Shown here in pieces: positions 15,687 through 44,111 of a DNA stretch of 64,000 nt. The DNA comes from Clostridia bacterium. Lineage in GTDB: Bacteria > Bacillota > Peptococcia > DRI-13 > SM3-B62. Every line of letters starts with the position of its first letter. Positions within the stretch are counted from its first letter, which is position 1. The stretch is taken from NCBI GenBank assembly GCA_018433675.1, contig JAHDQS010000009.1, positions 1-64,000 of the forward strand, in the 5' to 3' direction. Made by a program: the position numbers and the translations under genes. The notes beneath the pieces were generated by a model that was given only the letters and a program-made list of their open reading frames with translations, was not told the DNA's origin and did not search any database.

Positions 15687-15733
15687 GTTAGCAGTAATCA
15701 GGCGAGAAGGGCCTGTGACAAATGAATATAGCT

Positions 15734-15766
15734 CCCTTGAAGTTAGTCCTGTGAGGCTAGTAAGGG
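15734..15766 (+). promoter_or_regulatory. PyrR-binding anti-antiterminator hairpin
   Basis: The core AGTCCTGTGAGGCT at 15745-15758 fits the PyrR RNA consensus ARUCCNGNGAGGYU exactly. It sits in a hairpin closed by CCCTT (15734-15738) with AAGGG (15762-15766). When UMP or UTP is high, PyrR binds this loop and lets the downstream terminator form. pyrR itself is not in the window. Confidence 0.87.
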
Positions 15767-15803
15767 TCTTTGTATACGCATGGTATATTTGTATATAAAC
15801 ATA

Positions 15804-15838
15804 CCTCCTGGTTTCGCGCGGAAATCAGGAGGTTTTTT
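15804..15838 (+). terminator. Attenuator terminator of the pyr leader
   Basis: A 12-bp stem (15804-15815 with 15821-15832, one G-U pair) around the loop GCGCG is followed by six T at 15833-15838. It lies 64 nt before the pyrB ATG and is the regulated terminator of the leader. Confidence 0.88.
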
Positions 15839-15902
15839 GGTGCCCGGGAGATAAACAGGAAATAATAATGGACAAAATAAATTTTACATGGGAGGGAAGA
15901 AT

Positions 15903-31557: not shown

Positions 31558-31661
31558 TGCAGTTCCTCCTTAAATAAATAATTGGTTTTGAGACGAGGCA
31601 ATTACTGCTTCATTAATATTATATGTGTGGGGAAAAGAATAGGGACAACCAAAAATTACCA

Positions 31662-31690
31662 TTTACTAATGTGTCAGAGCGTTGTATAAT
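31662..31690 (+). promoter_or_regulatory. Promoter of the trp operon
   Basis: TTTACT (31662-31667), 17-nt spacer, TATAAT (31685-31690). The predicted transcript starts near 31697, about 55 nt before the TRAP-like array and 230 nt before trpE. Confidence 0.65.
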
Positions 31691-31752
31691 ACCGATAATT
31701 ATCCAATATTAAGCTAAAACTTTTTCCAGAAAACAGAAAATAGTTTACTGTT

Positions 31753-31797
31753 GAGCCTAGATGAGTTGAGCCGAGAAGAGTTTAGTTTAGCGAATAG
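31753..31797 (+). promoter_or_regulatory. TRAP (MtrB) RNA-binding site in the trp leader
   Basis: Eight (G/U)AG triplets start at 31753, 31758, 31763, 31768, 31773, 31778, 31783 and 31788, each separated by exactly two bases; a ninth UAG follows at 31795. Order: GAG, TAG, GAG, GAG, GAG, GAG, TAG, TAG. This is the spacing bound by the ring-shaped tryptophan-activated protein TRAP of Bacillus (which prefers 9-11 triplets). It lies in the untranslated leader of trpE upstream of a terminator. mtrB is not in the window. Confidence 0.85.
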
Positions 31798-31843
31798 GAA
31801 GGCGAAGGTATGTGGTGATACCTTTGTTTGTGATTCCTGTTTG

Positions 31844-31868
31844 CGGACTCCATCGTCGAGAGGATCCG
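31844..31868 (+). promoter_or_regulatory. Candidate antiterminator in the trp leader
   Basis: CGGACTC (31844-31850) can pair with GAG (31858-31860) and TCCG (31865-31868), leaving a four-base bulge. Positions 31865-31868 also form the 5' arm of the terminator, so the two structures exclude each other. The TRAP triplets lie 45 nt upstream, further than in B. subtilis, so how binding would switch the fold is uncertain. Confidence 0.5.
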
Positions 31869-31894
31869 GGACATTCAGTCTCGGATTTTTTTTT
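31864..31894 (+). terminator. Attenuator terminator of the trp leader
   Basis: Nine base pairs (31864-31872 with 31878-31886, one G-U) close the loop ATTCA and lead straight into a run of T (31886-31894). It lies 35 nt before trpE. Confidence 0.87.
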
Positions 31895-31929
31895 AACTTT
31901 GCGTACCTGGGCCATGAAAGGGAGGGGGA

Positions 31930-33417
31930 ATGAGGGTGTTTCCACGAAGTGTCGAGGAATTTATTAAAATGGCAGAGAAAGGCCTGCTTGTTCCGGTTTA
32001 TCATGAGTTATCAGCGTCTTTTGAAACCCCGTTGTCTGTTTATCTGAAGGTAAGGCAAGGGTCGTACAGTTATTTGCTGGAGAGTGTGGAAAGAGGAGTA
32101 CAGGTGGGGAGGTATTCTTTTATCGGGCCGGGTTGTTCTACGGTGCTAAGTGCTGCCGGGGGTGAGGTCACGGTGTCCAAAGAAGGAAAGGTGCAGGTGT
32201 ATGAGACGGCAGACCCTTTATATGTACTAAATGAAATGGTGTCGAAACAGCGTGTCGCAAAGATGCCGGCATTGCCTGGGTTCTGGGGCGGTGCGGTAGG
32301 ATATATGGGTTATGATATGGTGCGTTATTTTGAAAAGCTGCCGCCGGCAAAGGAAAATACGGAGGGTATTCCTGATTGTGTGTTCATGTTTTCCGATGTT
32401 GTTTTGATATATGATCATGTGCGGCAGGTCATTCAGACGGTGGTAAATGTTGAGGTGGGTGATGAGCCGATTGAGGATTATCATAGAGCAGTTAAGGAAA
32501 TCAAGAGAATTGAGAGAAGATTGCAAGAGGGATTGCCTGAGTTATTAGGGAAAGAGGGTGAAACCTTCTCGGAGGATGAGGAGATTTTTTGCTCGGTTAA
32601 TGAAAAAGAATACCAAAGCATGGTGGGTCGGGCAAAGGAATATATCAGGGCAGGGGACATTTTCCAAGTGGTATTATCGCAACAATACCACAAGAGGCTG
32701 AAGACTTCACCCTTGGAGGTTTACAGGAATTTACGTTCCATTAATCCGTCTCCATATATGTTCTATTTAGAGATGGACGAATTGAAGCTGGTGGGTTCTT
32801 CCCCGGAAATACTTGTCAGGGTGGAGGACGGAGAGGTTGAACTTAGACCGATTGCCGGGACGAGACCTCGTGGAAAGGATGCGAAGGAGGAGGAAGAGCT
32901 GGGAAGGGATTTGTCAGCCGACGAAAAGGAAAGGGCTGAGCATTTGATGTTGGTCGATTTGGGACGTAACGACCTTGGCAGAGTTTGTGATTATGGGAGC
33001 GTGGAAGTTACGGATTTTATGGAGATTGAAAAATATTCACATGTCATACACCTTGTTTCGCGCATTAAGGGGAGGTTGAGAGCAGGCGTCGACAATTTTG
33101 ACGTAATGCGGGCCTGTTTTCCCGCCGGAACAGTATCAGGGGCCCCAAAGATACGGGCGATGGAAATCATTGATGAATTGGAACCGGTGTACAGAGGGCC
33201 ATACGCCGGAGCTGTCGGATATTTTGGCTATAACGGGAATATGGATACTTGCATAACGATTCGCACCATTGTCATTAATAACGGTAAAGCATATATTCAG
33301 GCTGGTGCCGGTATTGTCGCAGATTCCGATCCCCGTAAAGAATATCTTGAGTGTCGGAATAAAGCCAAGGCACTGTTCCAAGCTATAGAAGCCGCAGAGG
33401 GGAGGGAAGAGGGATGA
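31930..33417 (+). CDS. trpE: Anthranilate synthase component I
   Basis: Chorismate-using subunit of anthranilate synthase; 495 residues. Feedback-site region LLES is near residue 49, and the catalytic domain has the chorismate-binding motifs PSPYMFYLE, GSSPEILVRVEDGEVELRPIAGTRPRG near 285-312, and MLVDLGRNDLGRVC near 345. ATG 31930 follows AAGGGAGGGGG. It overlaps trpG by 4 nt, as expected for a stoichiometric pair. Expression is probably governed by the TRAP-type leader upstream. Confidence 0.95.
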   Translation: MRVFPRSVEEFIKMAEKGLLVPVYHELSASFETPLSVYLKVRQGSYSYLLESVERGVQVGRYSFIGPGCSTVLSAAGGEVTVSKEGKVQVYETADPLYVLNEMVSKQRVAKMPALPGFWGGAVGYMGYDMVRYFEKLPPAKENTEGIPDCVFMFSDVVLIYDHVRQVIQTVVNVEVGDEPIEDYHRAVKEIKRIERRLQEGLPELLGKEGETFSEDEEIFCSVNEKEYQSMVGRAKEYIRAGDIFQVVLSQQYHKRLKTSPLEVYRNLRSINPSPYMFYLEMDELKLVGSSPEILVRVEDGEVELRPIAGTRPRGKDAKEEEELGRDLSADEKERAEHLMLVDLGRNDLGRVCDYGSVEVTDFMEIEKYSHVIHLVSRIKGRLRAGVDNFDVMRACFPAGTVSGAPKIRAMEIIDELEPVYRGPYAGAVGYFGYNGNMDTCITIRTIVINNGKAYIQAGAGIVADSDPRKEYLECRNKAKALFQAIEAAEGREEG

Positions 33418-33980
33418 TTATCGTCATTGATAATTATGACTCCTTTACGTATAATCTGGTGCAGTATTTAGGGATGCTCGGTTCAAAAATTACGGTGTTT
33501 CGTAACGACCAGGTCGGCATAAAGGATATTGAGAGAATGAGCTTTCAGGGGCTGGTTATCTCTCCCGGGCCCGGTGTGCCTGAAAAAGCCGGGATATGCA
33601 AAGGGTTGATCAGGAAAATGTCAGGGCGGATCCCTATTCTTGGTGTTTGTTTGGGGCACCAATGTATTGGGGAGGTATTTGGCTTGCCTGTCGTGCAAGC
33701 GCAAGAGCCGATGCACGGCAAAACATGTTTGATCGATCATGTTAAGCAAGGCTTGTTTAAAGGAATACCGCAGGGAATAAGGGTCGCCCGTTATCATTCT
33801 CTTGTTCTGGAGGAACGAGAAGAGGCGGGTTCGCTGGCGGTAACCGCCAAAACGTCGGAGGGGACAGTCATGGCTGTTCAACACAGAACTCATCCAACAT
33901 TCGGCGTGCAGTTCCATCCGGAGTCAATTGCCACTGAATACGGGTTTGAGGTTTTGCAAAACTTTTTGTCCTGCTGCTAA
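33414..33980 (+). CDS. trpG: Anthranilate synthase component II (glutamine amidotransferase)
   Basis: Class I glutaminase, 188 residues, supplying ammonia to TrpE. Nucleophile in GVCLGHQCIG near residue 77-86, oxyanion SPGPGVPEKAG near 50, and the His/Glu pair in FHPESIATEYG near 170. As in B. subtilis, such a protein can also serve folate synthesis (PabA) if no dedicated copy exists. It overlaps trpE by 4 nt. After it, a 51-nt gap carries the second triplet array before trpD. Confidence 0.94.
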   Translation: MIIVIDNYDSFTYNLVQYLGMLGSKITVFRNDQVGIKDIERMSFQGLVISPGPGVPEKAGICKGLIRKMSGRIPILGVCLGHQCIGEVFGLPVVQAQEPMHGKTCLIDHVKQGLFKGIPQGIRVARYHSLVLEEREEAGSLAVTAKTSEGTVMAVQHRTHPTFGVQFHPESIATEYGFEVLQNFLSCC

Positions 33981-33985
33981 GAAGT

Positions 33986-34027
33986 GAGTGAGCAGAGTAA
34001 AGTGGAGTTAAGCGGAGAGGAGAAGAG
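33986..34027 (+). promoter_or_regulatory. TRAP-like triplet array over the trpD ribosome site
   Basis: Triplets at 33990, 33995, 34000, 34005, 34010, 34015, 34020 and 34025 keep the exact 5-nt period; six are GAG and two (34000, 34010) are AAG. A further GAG lies at 33986. The array overlaps the GGAG/AGGAG ribosome site of trpD (34014-34022) and ends 5 nt before its ATG. TRAP bound here would block ribosome access, as it does on B. subtilis trpG and trpP. Purine richness of a ribosome site explains part of this but not the period. Confidence 0.65.
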
Positions 34028-34031
34028 AGGT

Positions 34032-35090
34032 ATGATGAAAAATGTTATCGGTAAGGTTGTACAGGGAGAAAGCCTGAATTATGAAGAGGCGCAGGCGGCT
34101 ATGCTATATATCATGGAAGGGAAGGCCAGTGATGCACAGATCGGCAGTTTCCTGACGGCTTTGCGGATTAAGGGGGAAACGGCTGAGGAGATAGCGGGTT
34201 GCGCGGCAGCGATGAGGAGGAAGGCACTCCAGATCAACAGTGATTGTGCGGATTTGGTCGATACCTGCGGAACAGGCGGCGATGGCAGCGGAACTTTTAA
34301 TATATCGACAACGGCTGCTTTTGTTGTGGCGGGGGCCGGGGTGCCGGTAGCCAAACACGGCAACAGGGCCGTGTCCGGAAAGAGCGGCAGTGCCGACCTT
34401 TTGGAGGCGTTGGGGGCGAAACTGGATTTGCCGTCGCAGGAAGTAGAAAGAATAATGAATACGGTAGGTATCGGCTTCTTGTATGCGCCGGCTTTTCATC
34501 AGGCGATGAAGTATGCCGCCGGACCAAGGCGGGAAATAGGAATTCGCAGCATCTTTAACGTGTTGGGGCCTTTGGCTAATCCGGCACGGGCCAGTGCTCA
34601 TCTTTTAGGGGTATACGAACCGGAGTTGACGGAGACCATAGCCGGGGTACTGAATCGTTTGGGGGTCAAAAGGGCTTTTGTTGTTCATGGTTTGGGTGGT
34701 TTGGATGAGCTTTCCACTATCGGGCCTACGAAAATAAGCCGTTTGGAAGGCGGTTCAATCAAAACATATCTGATTCGACCGCAGGATTTTGGTTTACCGC
34801 AGGTTAAGCTTGAAGAGCTGCAGGGTGGGGATGCTCGGCAAAATGCGGTGATTACCCGTGAAATTCTGGAAGGGAAAAAGGGACCGCAGAGAGATATTGT
34901 GCTCTTAAATGCGGCTGCTGCTTTTGTCGTATGCGGCAGGGCAAGAGACTTGACAGAAGGTATCAGAGTCGCTGCCGAGAGTATTGAGACAGGTATGGCG
35001 GCGGAAAAACTGAAAGAGTTCATCAAGGCGACAAATAATGTTGTGCTGAATAATGCGGTAGGTTTGCAGTATCGGGTGGTGGAGAACTGA
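34032..35090 (+). CDS. trpD: Anthranilate phosphoribosyltransferase
   Basis: Transfers phosphoribose from PRPP to anthranilate. About 352 residues; the PRPP loop DTCGTGGDGSGTFNIST is near residue 77, and KHGNRAVSGKSGSADLLEALG near 107. I start at ATG 34032 (34035 is equivalent), where the protein matches the family start (VIGKVVQGESL) and GGAGAGGAG lies upstream. A GTG at 33984 would put the triplet array inside the coding sequence and adds residues absent from homologues. Its stop overlaps the trpC ATG by 1 nt. Confidence 0.94.
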   Translation: MMKNVIGKVVQGESLNYEEAQAAMLYIMEGKASDAQIGSFLTALRIKGETAEEIAGCAAAMRRKALQINSDCADLVDTCGTGGDGSGTFNISTTAAFVVAGAGVPVAKHGNRAVSGKSGSADLLEALGAKLDLPSQEVERIMNTVGIGFLYAPAFHQAMKYAAGPRREIGIRSIFNVLGPLANPARASAHLLGVYEPELTETIAGVLNRLGVKRAFVVHGLGGLDELSTIGPTKISRLEGGSIKTYLIRPQDFGLPQVKLEELQGGDARQNAVITREILEGKKGPQRDIVLLNAAAAFVVCGRARDLTEGIRVAAESIETGMAAEKLKEFIKATNNVVLNNAVGLQYRVVEN

Positions 35091-35881
35091 TGTTAGAAAG
35101 AATCGTTGCACAGAAGAAAAAGGAGCTCGCTTTATTAAAAGAGCAAACACCCCTAGAAGTATTGGAAAACAAGGGCGAAGAAAAAGGCACAAATGGATTC
35201 GGAAAGAGACAGAGCCAGAGCTTTAGCGAAGCGATTCAAGGTAAAGGGGTAAGCCTGATTGCTGAGATGAAGAAGGCTTCGCCGTCAAAAGGGCTTTTGA
35301 AGAGTGAGTATGAACCTGCAAGGATTGCTCGTTGCTATGAAGAAAACGGGGCGGCGGCAATATCTGTTCTCACAGAGTCGGCGTTCTTTCTGGGAAGTTT
35401 GGAGCATCTGCGGGAGGTTCGGGAAACAGTCGAAATACCTCTATTGCGAAAGGATTTCGTTATTGATTCCTACCAGATATATGAGGCTTTTGCTTGTGGG
35501 GCTGATGTTGTTTTGTTGATTGCGGCTCTGTTGGAGGAAAAAGAATTGTTGCGGCTTAGGGAACTGGCGTTTGCCTTAGGGATGGAGTCGCTGGTAGAGG
35601 TTCATACAGAGGACGAGCTCAAAAAAGCAGTAGCCTGCGGGGCGAGGGTGCTGGGCATCAATAACCGGAATCTTACTACGTTTCAAACTGATTTAAACGT
35701 GACGTTGAGGTTAGCGGGGATGGTACCGGATTCCTGTTTGCTGGTAAGCGAGAGCGGCATTACCGGTGCTGCGGAGATTAAGGTTTTGGGAGAGGCGGGA
35801 GTAAATGCTGTCCTGGTGGGAGAGGCAATTATGAAAAGTCGCGACCTTTGCGCAAAGGTTCGGGAACTGTCGGGAAGGTGA
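35090..35881 (+). CDS. trpC: Indole-3-glycerol phosphate synthase
   Basis: Cyclises CdRP to indole-3-glycerol phosphate; 263-residue TIM barrel. Signatures: LIAEMKKASPSKG near residue 57-69 with the catalytic Lys, LLRKDFVIDSYQIYEA near 120, GINNRNL near 190 and LVSESGI near 222. ATG 35090 shares one base with the trpD stop. trpF follows after 5 nt. TrpC is the last enzyme before tryptophan synthase, whose genes are absent here. Confidence 0.95.
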   Translation: MLERIVAQKKKELALLKEQTPLEVLENKGEEKGTNGFGKRQSQSFSEAIQGKGVSLIAEMKKASPSKGLLKSEYEPARIARCYEENGAAAISVLTESAFFLGSLEHLREVRETVEIPLLRKDFVIDSYQIYEAFACGADVVLLIAALLEEKELLRLRELAFALGMESLVEVHTEDELKKAVACGARVLGINNRNLTTFQTDLNVTLRLAGMVPDSCLLVSESGITGAAEIKVLGEAGVNAVLVGEAIMKSRDLCAKVRELSGR

Positions 35882-35886
35882 CAAGG

Positions 35887-36510
35887 ATGCTTTGGATCAA
35901 GGTTTGCGGCATCACGAATATACAGGATGCTCAGGCTGCGGTGGCTGCAGGCGCTGATGCCGTGGGTTTTGTTTTGGCAGCAAGTAAAAGAAGAGTGTCT
36001 GAAGATATCGTCCGGGAGATTATCAAGGAGTTGCCTAATGGAATCGAAAAGATTGGTGTCTTTGTTGATGAAAAAGGGGAGACGGTAAAAAGGATAGCTT
36101 CTTATTGTGGTTTGACCGGCATACAATTGCATGGAGAGGAGTCTTCAGAGTATTGTCGAATGTTAAGCGAAGACGGATATAATGTAATTAAAGCCGTACG
36201 GGTAAAGGATAAAATCGATGAGCAGCAACTTAAGCCTTATCTTGATTTAAACGCTATCTTGCTTGATACTTATAAAACAGGGCAACTGGGCGGAACCGGA
36301 GAGGTTTTCGACTGGCGGGCGGTTTTGGTATATAATTGGGAAAATACGCCGTACATCCTGGCCGGAGGTCTTCATGCCGGAAACGTCGCAGAGGCCGTGA
36401 GGATTACTAAACCGTTCGGGGTCGATGTGAGCAGCGGAGTGGAAAAGGAACCAGGGAAAAAGGATTGCGAGAAACTGAGGGAATTTATCTATCAAGCAAG
36501 ACAGGCATGA
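35887..36510 (+). CDS. trpF: Phosphoribosylanthranilate isomerase
   Basis: Amadori rearrangement of PRA to CdRP; about 207 residues, TIM barrel. Catalytic Cys in IKVCGITNIQDA at the N-terminus, AVGFVLAASKRRVS near 30, GIQLHGEE near 80, and LAGGLHAGNVAEA near 155 with the phosphate loop VDVSSGVEKEPGKKD. Starts at ATG 35887 (AAGGTGACAAGG upstream) rather than inside trpC. Followed 35 nt later by an ECF transporter gene. Confidence 0.94.
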   Translation: MLWIKVCGITNIQDAQAAVAAGADAVGFVLAASKRRVSEDIVREIIKELPNGIEKIGVFVDEKGETVKRIASYCGLTGIQLHGEESSEYCRMLSEDGYNVIKAVRVKDKIDEQQLKPYLDLNAILLDTYKTGQLGGTGEVFDWRAVLVYNWENTPYILAGGLHAGNVAEAVRITKPFGVDVSSGVEKEPGKKDCEKLREFIYQARQA

Positions 36511-36545
36511 AAGAAATGTAAAGGCCGTGAAGGGAGAGAATGAGA

Positions 36546-37064
36546 ATGAAAAAATTTGACGTCAGGGAACTGGTTGCTGCGGGGTTAATGGCTGCCTTGG
36601 TGGTTGTCGGTACGATGCTGATCCAAGTTCCCACCCCTACCAGAGGATATATCCATATTGGCGATAGCATGGTCTATCTGTGTGGTGTGTTGTTAAACCC
36701 TTTAGCCGGCTTCCTCGCCGCAGCGGCAGGTTCATTTTTGGCCGATGTGTTTTCAGGTTATGGCGTTTATGCTCCGGTGAGTTTTGTTGTTAAGGGGCTT
36801 GATGCATTGGTAGTGGGTCTTTGCTACAAGAGGGTGGTAGCGGTTTACGGTGATAAAACGATAAAAAAGGCTTGGGCTTTTGCCGCTGGTGTTTTGTTGG
36901 GAGGAAGCATTATGGTCTTGGGATATCTTGCATATGAAACCTTTCTCTATGGGTTTTACGTTGCCGTATTAGGAATAGCGGGGAATATCACGCAAGCCTT
37001 GGGCGGCGGCTTATTGGCCTTTCCTTTGGTTCTGGCCTTGGGGAAAATAGGGGAGAGGTTTTAG
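36546..37064 (+). CDS. ECF-type transporter S component, probably for tryptophan or a precursor
   Basis: About 172 residues with six hydrophobic segments, in the ECF transporter substrate-binding (S) family. The N-terminal half shows ELVAAGLMAALVVVGTMLIQVPTP and GYIHIGDSMVYLCGVLLNPLAGFLAAAAGSFLADV, typical of S components. ATG 36546 is 9 nt after GGGAG; 36540 is closer to the site. As the last gene of the trp operon it plausibly imports tryptophan, indole or a related aromatic compound. It resembles in role B. subtilis TrpP. Its last 54 nt overlap the 3' end of convergent dinB. The energising T, A and A' subunits must be elsewhere. Confidence 0.8.
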   Translation: MKKFDVRELVAAGLMAALVVVGTMLIQVPTPTRGYIHIGDSMVYLCGVLLNPLAGFLAAAAGSFLADVFSGYGVYAPVSFVVKGLDALVVGLCYKRVVAVYGDKTIKKAWAFAAGVLLGGSIMVLGYLAYETFLYGFYVAVLGIAGNITQALGGGLLAFPLVLALGKIGERF

Positions 37065-41772: not shown

Positions 41773-42883
41773 GACCACAAAGTTGGGCTATTCCGAGGCT
41801 GCGGGGTTGGCTTTGGTATTCATTGGGACAAAGGCTTTTTTGGGTTACCCTCGGTTGATTTCCCAACTCGGTTTTACGGCAGGATGGCTGATTATTTTAA
41901 TAAGTGTGTTTGTAAGTATGGGTTTTTGGTTGATTCTCAGTGCCCTTTTAGCAAAATACCCGGGAGAATCCTTGCTTGCAATCAATGAAAAGGTAATGGG
42001 GTCCAAAATAGGGCTGGGTATAAATATGTTATTGTTCGTTTACATTATGTTGAGTACGGGATCGCTATTAAGGCAATTCAGTGAGGCGGTCATCTTAACG
42101 GCTTTGCCGGAAGCCCCGGTTAGCGCTGTAGCCGTTCTTTTTCTTATTCCGGCTTGGATGGCAGCTCATTTGGGATTAGAGGCGATAAGCCGCAGCACTT
42201 ATATTTCTCTGCCCTTCATTCTTGTCGGCGTATTGGTTGTCTTGCTTTCCTTGTATCCTTATTGGAATATTGAAGAGTTGTATCCTATTTTAGGAGCAGG
42301 TTTAGGTCCTGTCGTTAAGTACGGATTTTTAAATTCGTCTGTCTTTGGCGAGGTAATTATTCTTGCGATTTTAGCCTCATATTTTTCCTTTCGAACGAAG
42401 ACTTTGAGAAAAGTGGGGCTCTTTTCCCTCGTTTTTGTCGGTATCTATTTTATCCTGATTGCTATTGTTTATTTAATGGTCATCCCTATGCCGATGGCAA
42501 CCGAAAGCATAGCTCCGTTTTACCAGTTGTCACGTGCGATTTATTTGGGCAGATACTATCAGCGGTTGGAGTCCGCCTTTGTCATCTTCTGGACCTTTAC
42601 TGCCTATTTAAGACTTGCTATTGGAGTGATGGTCGTGGCACTCATTATTCGTGATTCGTTTAAAATACCTTATTATCAGCCTGTCCTGCCGGCAATATCC
42701 ATGATTGTTTTTAGTTTGGCCCTCACTCCTGTTGATTTTTTGCAGGCTATAGAATTCGAAGGAGGTTTTAGATTACCCTATGGTTGGGTTGTAAGTTTTG
42801 CTGTTCCATGTGCGGTATGGGGTGTTGCCGTACTGACAGGAAAGGCGGGAAGGGGTAAGGAGTATGACGAGAAAAAGGAGTAG
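41762..42883 (+). CDS. gerB: Spore germinant receptor subunit B (permease-like)
   Basis: About 373 residues with ten transmembrane segments, amino-acid-permease-like (APC superfamily) GerAB family. Near the N-terminus SEAAGLALVFIGTKAFLGYPRLISQLG matches the family start. Likely holds the germinant pocket. ATG 41762 or GTG 41759 may be used, with AAAGGGG just ahead. Overlaps gerA by about 10 nt and gerC by 20 nt, so the three subunits are translated together. Confidence 0.9.
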   Translation: MIIKTTKLGYSEAAGLALVFIGTKAFLGYPRLISQLGFTAGWLIILISVFVSMGFWLILSALLAKYPGESLLAINEKVMGSKIGLGINMLLFVYIMLSTGSLLRQFSEAVILTALPEAPVSAVAVLFLIPAWMAAHLGLEAISRSTYISLPFILVGVLVVLLSLYPYWNIEELYPILGAGLGPVVKYGFLNSSVFGEVIILAILASYFSFRTKTLRKVGLFSLVFVGIYFILIAIVYLMVIPMPMATESIAPFYQLSRAIYLGRYYQRLESAFVIFWTFTAYLRLAIGVMVVALIIRDSFKIPYYQPVLPAISMIVFSLALTPVDFLQAIEFEGGFRLPYGWVVSFAVPCAVWGVAVLTGKAGRGKEYDEKKE

Positions 42884-44111
42884 AGTGGTTTTGCTGTTTG
42901 TGTGCCTATTTTCTATACTCATCACGGCCGGATGTTGGGGAGCAAGGGAGACAGACGAAATGGGATATGTATTATCCTTGGGGATTGATCAAGGAGTTGA
43001 AAATGTAATTCAGGTTACCTTTCAGATTGCCATACCACAGTCACCGGAAGGCGGAGGAGGTGGCGGAGGAGGTGATAAAGAGAACAATATAGTAGTTTCG
43101 GTAGAGGCGGCTTCCCTTTTCGGTGCGCTACAGTTAGCAAATTCCTTTGTCAGCAGAGAGCTTACCCTTATTCATAACAGGGCGGTGATAGTTTCTGAAG
43201 AGATCGCCAGGGAAGGTATTAACAAATATCTTGAGCCTTTAGTTAGGAGCAGGGAAATAAGAAGGAACACCTTTTTTCTTGTGACTAGGGGCATGGCTAA
43301 GGAGTTTGTCGAAAGCAATCAACCCTTACTGGAAAGAAATGCGGCCCGAGACTTTGAACTCCTTCTGGCCGGGCGGAAGGTCGTAGGGTTTATTCCCAAT
43401 TCTATAATTAATGATATCCATAGATCCGTAAATGATTATGGCAGAGAAGCGATTGTGGCCCTTGTCGGTGTCAATAATGATAAAAAGGGAGAGGAAAAGC
43501 AAGAGGATTATCAAACTATGGTAAAAAGTGAGACGGCCCTTTTTCCCAACGAAGTTCCCCGCGAGGGTGGCAATAAAATAGAGGCTATCGGCTTAGCGGT
43601 TTTTCACGGGGATAGGCTCAAGGGTTACCTTAACGGATTAGAAACAAGCTACTACCAGATGATAACAGGCGACTTCAGGAGCGCGATCTATTCCTTTCCT
43701 GACCCGGAGAAGCCGGATGGGCACCTGATTGTTGTAAGGGTGACCAAAGGACGCAATCCACAATTCAAGGTCGTCTTTGAAGAGGGGAAGGTTGTCCCTT
43801 CTCTAGAGGTTACTCTCGCTTTGGAAGGAGAAATCCTCAGTATACAAAGTGGTCTTGAATATGAGAAAGGTAGTAAAGAAAAAGAACTGGAGGAATATCT
43901 GGCAAGATATCTGGCCTCCGGTGCCAACGATGTGATTAAAAAAACACAGAACGAGTTGGCCTGCGATATTTTTGGACTGGGTGATAAATTGCGCAAGTAT
44001 TTTTGGACTTTTCAGGAATGGAAGGATTACAACTGGCTGGAAAAGTACCCGTCCTCTGAGGTCAATGTTAAGGTCAACCTCATAATACGGCGGACAGGGC
44101 TTTCATCTTAA
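42864..44111 (+). CDS. gerC: Spore germinant receptor subunit C (lipoprotein)
   Basis: 415 residues with a signal peptide and lipobox ITAGC (Cys near residue 23), followed by GARETDEMGYVLSLGIDQ, the hallmark of Ger(x)C. Domain 2 and 3 features follow (FVSRELTLIHNRAVIVSEE, AIGLAVFHGDRLKGYLNG). Odd feature: a run of eight glycines near residue 63-70, unusual in this family and probably a flexible loop. Starts within gerB (overlap 20 nt) with GGGAAGGGGTAAGG upstream. A small membrane gene follows after 25 nt. Confidence 0.92.
   Translation: MTRKRSRVVLLFVCLFSILITAGCWGARETDEMGYVLSLGIDQGVENVIQVTFQIAIPQSPEGGGGGGGGDKENNIVVSVEAASLFGALQLANSFVSRELTLIHNRAVIVSEEIAREGINKYLEPLVRSREIRRNTFFLVTRGMAKEFVESNQPLLERNAARDFELLLAGRKVVGFIPNSIINDIHRSVNDYGREAIVALVGVNNDKKGEEKQEDYQTMVKSETALFPNEVPREGGNKIEAIGLAVFHGDRLKGYLNGLETSYYQMITGDFRSAIYSFPDPEKPDGHLIVVRVTKGRNPQFKVVFEEGKVVPSLEVTLALEGEILSIQSGLEYEKGSKEKELEEYLARYLASGANDVIKKTQNELACDIFGLGDKLRKYFWTFQEWKDYNWLEKYPSSEVNVKVNLIIRRTGLSS

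Follow-up and report, generated by a model that had tools for sequence, protein, structure and literature searches.

A very probable TRAP-controlled trp leader in a Clostridia-like genome, with further predicted TRAP sites and a T-box before trpBA

Introduction

Which signal shuts off the trp operon in the stretch of Clostridia bacterium DNA analysed here? The trp RNA-binding protein TRAP (MtrB) is a textbook regulator that has been studied almost wholly in Bacillus. An earlier note proposed that a TRAP-type attenuator precedes trpE in this stretch of 64,000 nucleotides (the window), and considered this unusual, as trp genes of Clostridia would more often be under T-box control. We followed up the proposal computationally through the triplet array, the terminator, the mtrB gene, their conservation and the co-occurrence of arrays with mtrB. 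We conclude, with a probability of about 0.85, that this bacterium shuts off its trp genes with TRAP, and that the leader of trpEGDCF carries a TRAP site coupled to terminator control. This is a known kind of regulation in a variant that is unrecognised by the Rfam model built on Bacillus. Of greater interest is what surrounds the coordinates that were first noticed: predicted TRAP sites inside the operon, and TRAP and T-box control that are either divided between genes or stacked on one leader.

The triplet array and the operon

The features of the locus are collected in Table 1. The array upstream of trpE consists of GAG and TAG triplets with first bases at 31753, 31758, 31763, 31768, 31773, 31778, 31783 and 31788. 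The steps are thus exactly 5 nt and the spacers, which are not repetitive, are 2 nt throughout. Reading of the sequence, a scan of the window and shuffling all confirm this series as it had been described. Elsewhere in the window, on both strands, the next longest run at 5-nt steps is three. When the leader (31650–31929) was shuffled 20,000 times with dinucleotides preserved, no run exceeded four; the same number of shuffles restricted to the 60-nt array region gave a maximum of six, which occurred three times. A ninth triplet had been suggested at 31795. The TAG is present, but being out of phase, replaced by TGG in the same-genus genome G012 and located inside a predicted hairpin stem it was rejected as a member, and the TRAP site of this leader probably has eight triplets, not nine.

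Table 1. Features of the trp locus, in window coordinates
Feature	Coordinates	Strand	Evidence
Candidate promoter, TTTACT-17-TATAAT	31662..31690	+	Consensus scan, weak alone; element kept in same-genus G012
Predicted TRAP-binding array, eight (G/U)AG triplets	31753..31790	+	Sequence reading, window scan, shuffles; nine in-phase in G012
Stable hairpin adjoining the array on its 3' side, candidate spacer	31791..31843	+	RNA folding
TAG 7 nt on from last triplet, out of phase, probably outside TRAP site	31795..31797	+	TGG in G012; within predicted stem
Local hairpin overlapping terminator 5' arm	31844..31868	+	CGGACTCC pairs with GGATCCG
Intrinsic terminator, 15 pairs, 5-nt loop, then T run	31858..31892	+	Terminator scan; dG about −18 kcal/mol
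trpE	31930..33417	+	TIGR00564 over cut-off
trpG	33414..33980	+	TIGR00566 over cut-off
Second TRAP-like array, less regular, over trpD ribosome-binding site	33986..34029	+	Nine triplets; triplet count at starts
trpD, start moved from GTG 33984 to ATG 34032	34032..35090	+	TIGR01245 over cut-off; start from SD position and relatives
trpC	35090..35881	+	NF001377 over cut-off
trpF, true start probably about 35887	35848..36510	+	NF002298 over cut-off
Riboflavin-type S component of an ECF transporter, final gene of the run	36540..37064	+	PF07155 over cut-off

A terminator had been placed at 31864–31894. It is real, spans 31858–31892 and stands between the array and trpE; terminator-like sites number three in the region against 0.3 expected. 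The promoter scan of the same region gave two hits against 1.3 expected, which is weak evidence by itself. On the 3' side of the terminator the genes follow in the order trpE, trpG, trpD, trpC, trpF and the ECF transporter gene, and trpBA is absent from the operon. Elsewhere in the window a PyrR binding site is found at 15731–15840 (Rfam RF00515, 56.9 bits).

The MtrB protein of the genome

An absent mtrB, or a triplet spacing lost in close relatives, had been named as grounds for giving up TRAP control. A search of the genome (G000 in our collection) found one mtrB gene (G000:C20:75347-75547, E 6e-40), which lies between a coaD-like and a DUF2007-like gene and not near trp. All 18 positions that were checked, which contact tryptophan or RNA in TRAP structures, are kept in its product. 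The protein has 77 amino acids, is identical to the crystallised TRAP 1c9s in 47 of 67 residues and scores 140 bits, over the curated equivalog cut-off of 117 (NF009724, PF02081).

The MtrB proteins of G025, G026, G028, G029 and G030 (families f9, f10 and f12) carry lysine at the position of Arg58 and glutamine at that of His51. The trpE leaders that were read among these genomes are T-boxes, and a drift in TRAP specificity is possible in this set.

Conservation and co-occurrence with mtrB

The only close relative available for a comparison of leaders is G012 (94% TrpE identity). Nine perfectly spaced triplets precede its trpE; compared with the window, the TAG at 31795 is missing and one in-phase triplet is added at the 5' end of the array. 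G012 thus keeps the spacing, and further genomes of the order show it in varied form. With mtrB present and the spacing conserved, neither ground for giving up TRAP control exists. An array followed by a terminator stands directly before trpE in G000, G012, G010, G007, G009 and G014; the array of G009 is irregular, and the terminator of G014 was seen by folding and missed by the terminator finder. In G001 and G002 the array and terminator are followed by a T-box and only then by trpE. The trpE leaders of G013, G025, G028 and G030 are T-boxes alone despite the presence of mtrB, as are others in genomes that lack the gene.

As to whether TRAP is exceptional in Clostridia, mtrB occurs in 21 of the 46 genomes of the class in our collection, which makes it no oddity. 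T-box control of trp genes coexists with TRAP, both in the class and in this genome. Arrays of five triplets were found in 16 of the 21 class genomes with mtrB and in four of the 25 without.

In a sample of 398 genomes from the phylum, 200 of which have mtrB, we found exact six-triplet arrays in 102 of these 200 and in 8 of the 198 that lack the gene, fractions that are not a Clostridia-only frequency, as the sample takes in Bacillus-like genomes. The Fisher p of this association is about 2e-28, to be read as an index and not as a true probability since the genomes are related. The mtrB-negative genomes serve as the control for the array searches; the reversed pattern, which also matches pure GAG runs, is unsuitable. 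Among 30 array loci fetched in the phylum search, 22 were matched by one of the trp or aro queries (trpE, trpD, trpG-aroF, trpB2 or trpP). In one of the loci (L208, in G125) mtrB itself lies directly upstream of a TRAP-like array, a terminator and trpE. The pattern was also recovered at a locus (L180) whose leader is matched by Rfam as a Bacillus trp leader, and which acts as a positive control.

These observations bear on the simplest alternative, namely that the triplets before trpE arose by chance or as a low-complexity repeat and have no function. Simple repeats do explain some long GAG runs in other genomes (L073, L083, L186 and L190), but here the spacers are non-repetitive, a run of eight is never reached in shuffles, the position of the array before trpE is conserved and arrays co-occur with mtrB. 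We rejected this explanation and regard it as hardly credible. On this computational evidence, the trp leader of this uncultured, Clostridia-like bacterium is real and very probably functions under TRAP control.

Folding of the leader and the switch step

The stretch 31844–31868 had been proposed as an antiterminator. It can indeed pair, but folding does not show it to be a switch that TRAP would disrupt: the hairpin forms in the nascent RNA with the array either masked or free. It is perhaps a pause hairpin. It is separated from the array by the stable hairpin 31791–31843, where the differences from G012 keep the pairing or fall in loops and bulges.

To quantify the effect of TRAP, the free energy that is lost when the 3' arm of the terminator is barred from pairing was compared between leaders with the array free and with the array forced to be single-stranded. 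The latter is a stand-in for bound TRAP, and the folding is at equilibrium with kinetics ignored. Masking shifts the balance towards termination by +5.5 kcal/mol in the Bacillus-type control, +3.1 kcal/mol in G010, +2.6 kcal/mol in G014 and +2.2 kcal/mol in G007. In the window leader the shift is −0.4 to −2.2 kcal/mol and in G012 −1.7 kcal/mol, such that the terminator is not favoured. Shuffling of the spacers sets G014, G010 and G001 apart (1–3%), with the Bacillus control at 7% and G007 at 18%; the measure therefore has only moderate power. Using several transcript starts and ends as well as spacer shuffles, no TRAP-displaceable antiterminator was found in the window leader. An extended antiterminator spanning 31756–31870 is possible in folding but weak. 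The comparison agrees with the earlier suggestion that the switching mechanism may differ from that of B. subtilis, without explaining how.

The switch of the B. subtilis type, in which the array would supply the 5' side of an extended antiterminator (about 31756–31870) that captures the 5' arm of the terminator until TRAP blocks it and the terminator forms, is nevertheless a serious rival, with the same regulator and a different switch step. It is the predicted fold of the nascent 31735–31875 RNA and of the nascent RNA of G012. In the nascent RNA of G010, G007 and G014 the array likewise pairs with the terminator 5' arm, and these are the leaders in which masking is worth +2.2 to +3.1 kcal/mol. 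The window leader offers few outer pairs, which are weak and dependent on the transcript start that is assumed, and the masking shifts of the window and G012 are negative against the clearly positive one of the Bacillus control. We consider this switch possible but somewhat doubtful for the present leader.

Once the hairpin 31791–31843 is folded, arithmetic leaves a path of about 50 nt between the array and the point of release. This is similar to the path in B. subtilis, for which the coordinates come partly from PMC3913778. In that organism TRAP causes termination in vivo even with the attenuator hairpin mutated or deleted (PMC3913778). Because of this finding and the path of about 50 nt, our tentative preference is that the hairpin brings the TRAP ring closer to the polymerase, and that TRAP may assist termination more directly, with no classical antiterminator to be melted.

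A third possibility is that TRAP acts mainly on translation, where bound TRAP would free the leader to cover the ribosome-binding site of trpE with a fold, the terminator being constitutive or minor. The region around the trpE SD sequence is paired in some folds, and arrays that overlap the ribosome-binding sites of trpD and trpB2 make translational control likely elsewhere in the regulon. On the other hand, the array before trpE lies well upstream of the SD sequence with a strong terminator in between, and the same pairing of array and terminator precedes trpE in relatives. For trpE this reading is improbable.

Further predicted TRAP sites

The nine triplets at the trpD start are the highest count among the 64 SD-bearing starts in the window, and the trpD starts of four genomes that lack mtrB have one, one, one and three. 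As SD sequences are themselves GAG-rich, this array is weaker evidence than that before trpE. Similar clusters are seen at trpD in most relatives with mtrB, some of which have trpE under T-boxes. The trpB2 gene (TIGR01415, over cut-off) has an array over its SD sequence and start (G000:C55:34169-34206, L009), which recurs in G012 and at five of the six further trpB2 loci; it is absent in G014, a distant homologue.

In relatives, arrays are also found at trpB, aroF, a trpP-like gene and a gene for a TrpX-like ABC transporter. The label trpP-like is our own presumption from reading the sequence; the protein has no NCBIfam match. The TrpX-like gene (L064-L068, in G005-G009) has 9–10 triplets and a terminator upstream, a possible TRAP attenuator for tryptophan uptake to judge from this arrangement; the only NCBIfam match of its product is TrpX, below cut-off.

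A third triplet-dense stretch of the window, 43048–43107, was rejected as a TRAP site, being a run of poly-glycine codons. It sits in a gene (42864–44111) which by appearance encodes a germination-type lipoprotein.

TRAP and T-box in one genome

No T-box (RF00230) precedes trpE in the window. The trpBA genes are found on another contig, C33, behind a T-box (G000:C33:26368-26636, L216; RF00230, 114 bits) with a specifier region that we interpret as GAA-UGG, i.e. Trp. A further T-box of 84 bits, which is below the gathering score, lies before a DAHP synthase (aroF) gene (G000:C48:59156-59445, L231). In G001 and G002 (L037 and L036) a complete T-box (123 bits) stands between the TRAP-type array and terminator on one side and trpE on the other, again with a GAA-UGG specifier region, and these serial attenuators apparently sense both tryptophan and tRNA-Trp.

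According to PMC11255114, the Trp T-box of B. subtilis works through anti-TRAP. No small dedicated anti-TRAP gene was found in the present genome (assembly 99.94% complete, 58 contigs). The lone match to anti-TRAP, a zinc-finger stretch in a 385-amino-acid frame that is DnaJ-like by size, was rejected. The T-box here thus appears to act directly on trp genes rather than via anti-TRAP, and in G001 and G002 it would do so in series with TRAP.

Discussion

TRAP binding, its dependence on tryptophan, termination and translational repression are what we infer from the features described above. When tryptophan is plentiful, TRAP loaded with it would bind around the eight triplets as they emerge in the nascent RNA, and transcription would stop at the terminator. 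When tryptophan is scarce TRAP would stay off, and more transcripts would be read into trpE. In transcripts that escape, the second array could let TRAP repress translation of trpD through its ribosome-binding site, and the same translational repression is predicted for trpB2. A joint scheme may be drawn up as a conjecture. Without anti-TRAP, TRAP would govern the early steps of the pathway (attenuation at trpE, translation of trpD) as well as trpB2, and the T-box would govern trpBA; in G001 and G002 the two in series would form an AND gate; and in the genus of the window TRAP would stop transcription without displacing a classical antiterminator.

In the open-access literature we found no earlier description of trp operons with TRAP arrays in Clostridia-like bacteria, nor of TRAP and a T-box in series, a search that does not establish priority.

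The closest known system is the TRAP-controlled trp leader of B. subtilis (RF02370, Trp_leader_2). It has in common with the present one the (G/U)AG array, the terminator before trpE and an mtrB gene in the genome. The B. subtilis leader has 11 triplets instead of eight, which here are all at exact 5-nt spacing; the smaller number is a point against TRAP control. The present leader further differs in the stable hairpin inserted after the array and in that no TRAP-displaceable antiterminator was found, and the operon in its lack of trpBA. The RF02370 covariance model, which works on L180, does not match the window leader even at E <= 10 and matches none of the 46 genomes of the class. A leader with a hairpin between TRAP site and terminator would help to decide between refolding of the RNA and direct action of TRAP on the polymerase.

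TRAP also controls the translation of trpG, trpP and ycbK in B. subtilis. A triplet array over the ribosome-binding site is the shared feature, while the predicted targets here are trpD and trpB2 and, in relatives, also trpB, aroF and the trpP-like gene. With the Trp T-box leaders (RF00230) the genome shares a tRNA-Trp-type leader with a UGG specifier, here before trpBA and not before trpE; in G001 and G002 the T-box follows a TRAP attenuator. Finally, as with the anti-TRAP (rtpA) link of B. subtilis, tryptophan is sensed by TRAP and tRNA-Trp by a T-box in one organism. Here, in contrast, no anti-TRAP gene was found and trp genes seem to be under the direct control of the T-box. The two sensors thus appear to be combined without anti-TRAP, either by dividing the pathway or, in relatives, by placing the two switches one after the other in a single leader. 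The evolution of trp control thereby becomes open to direct tests.
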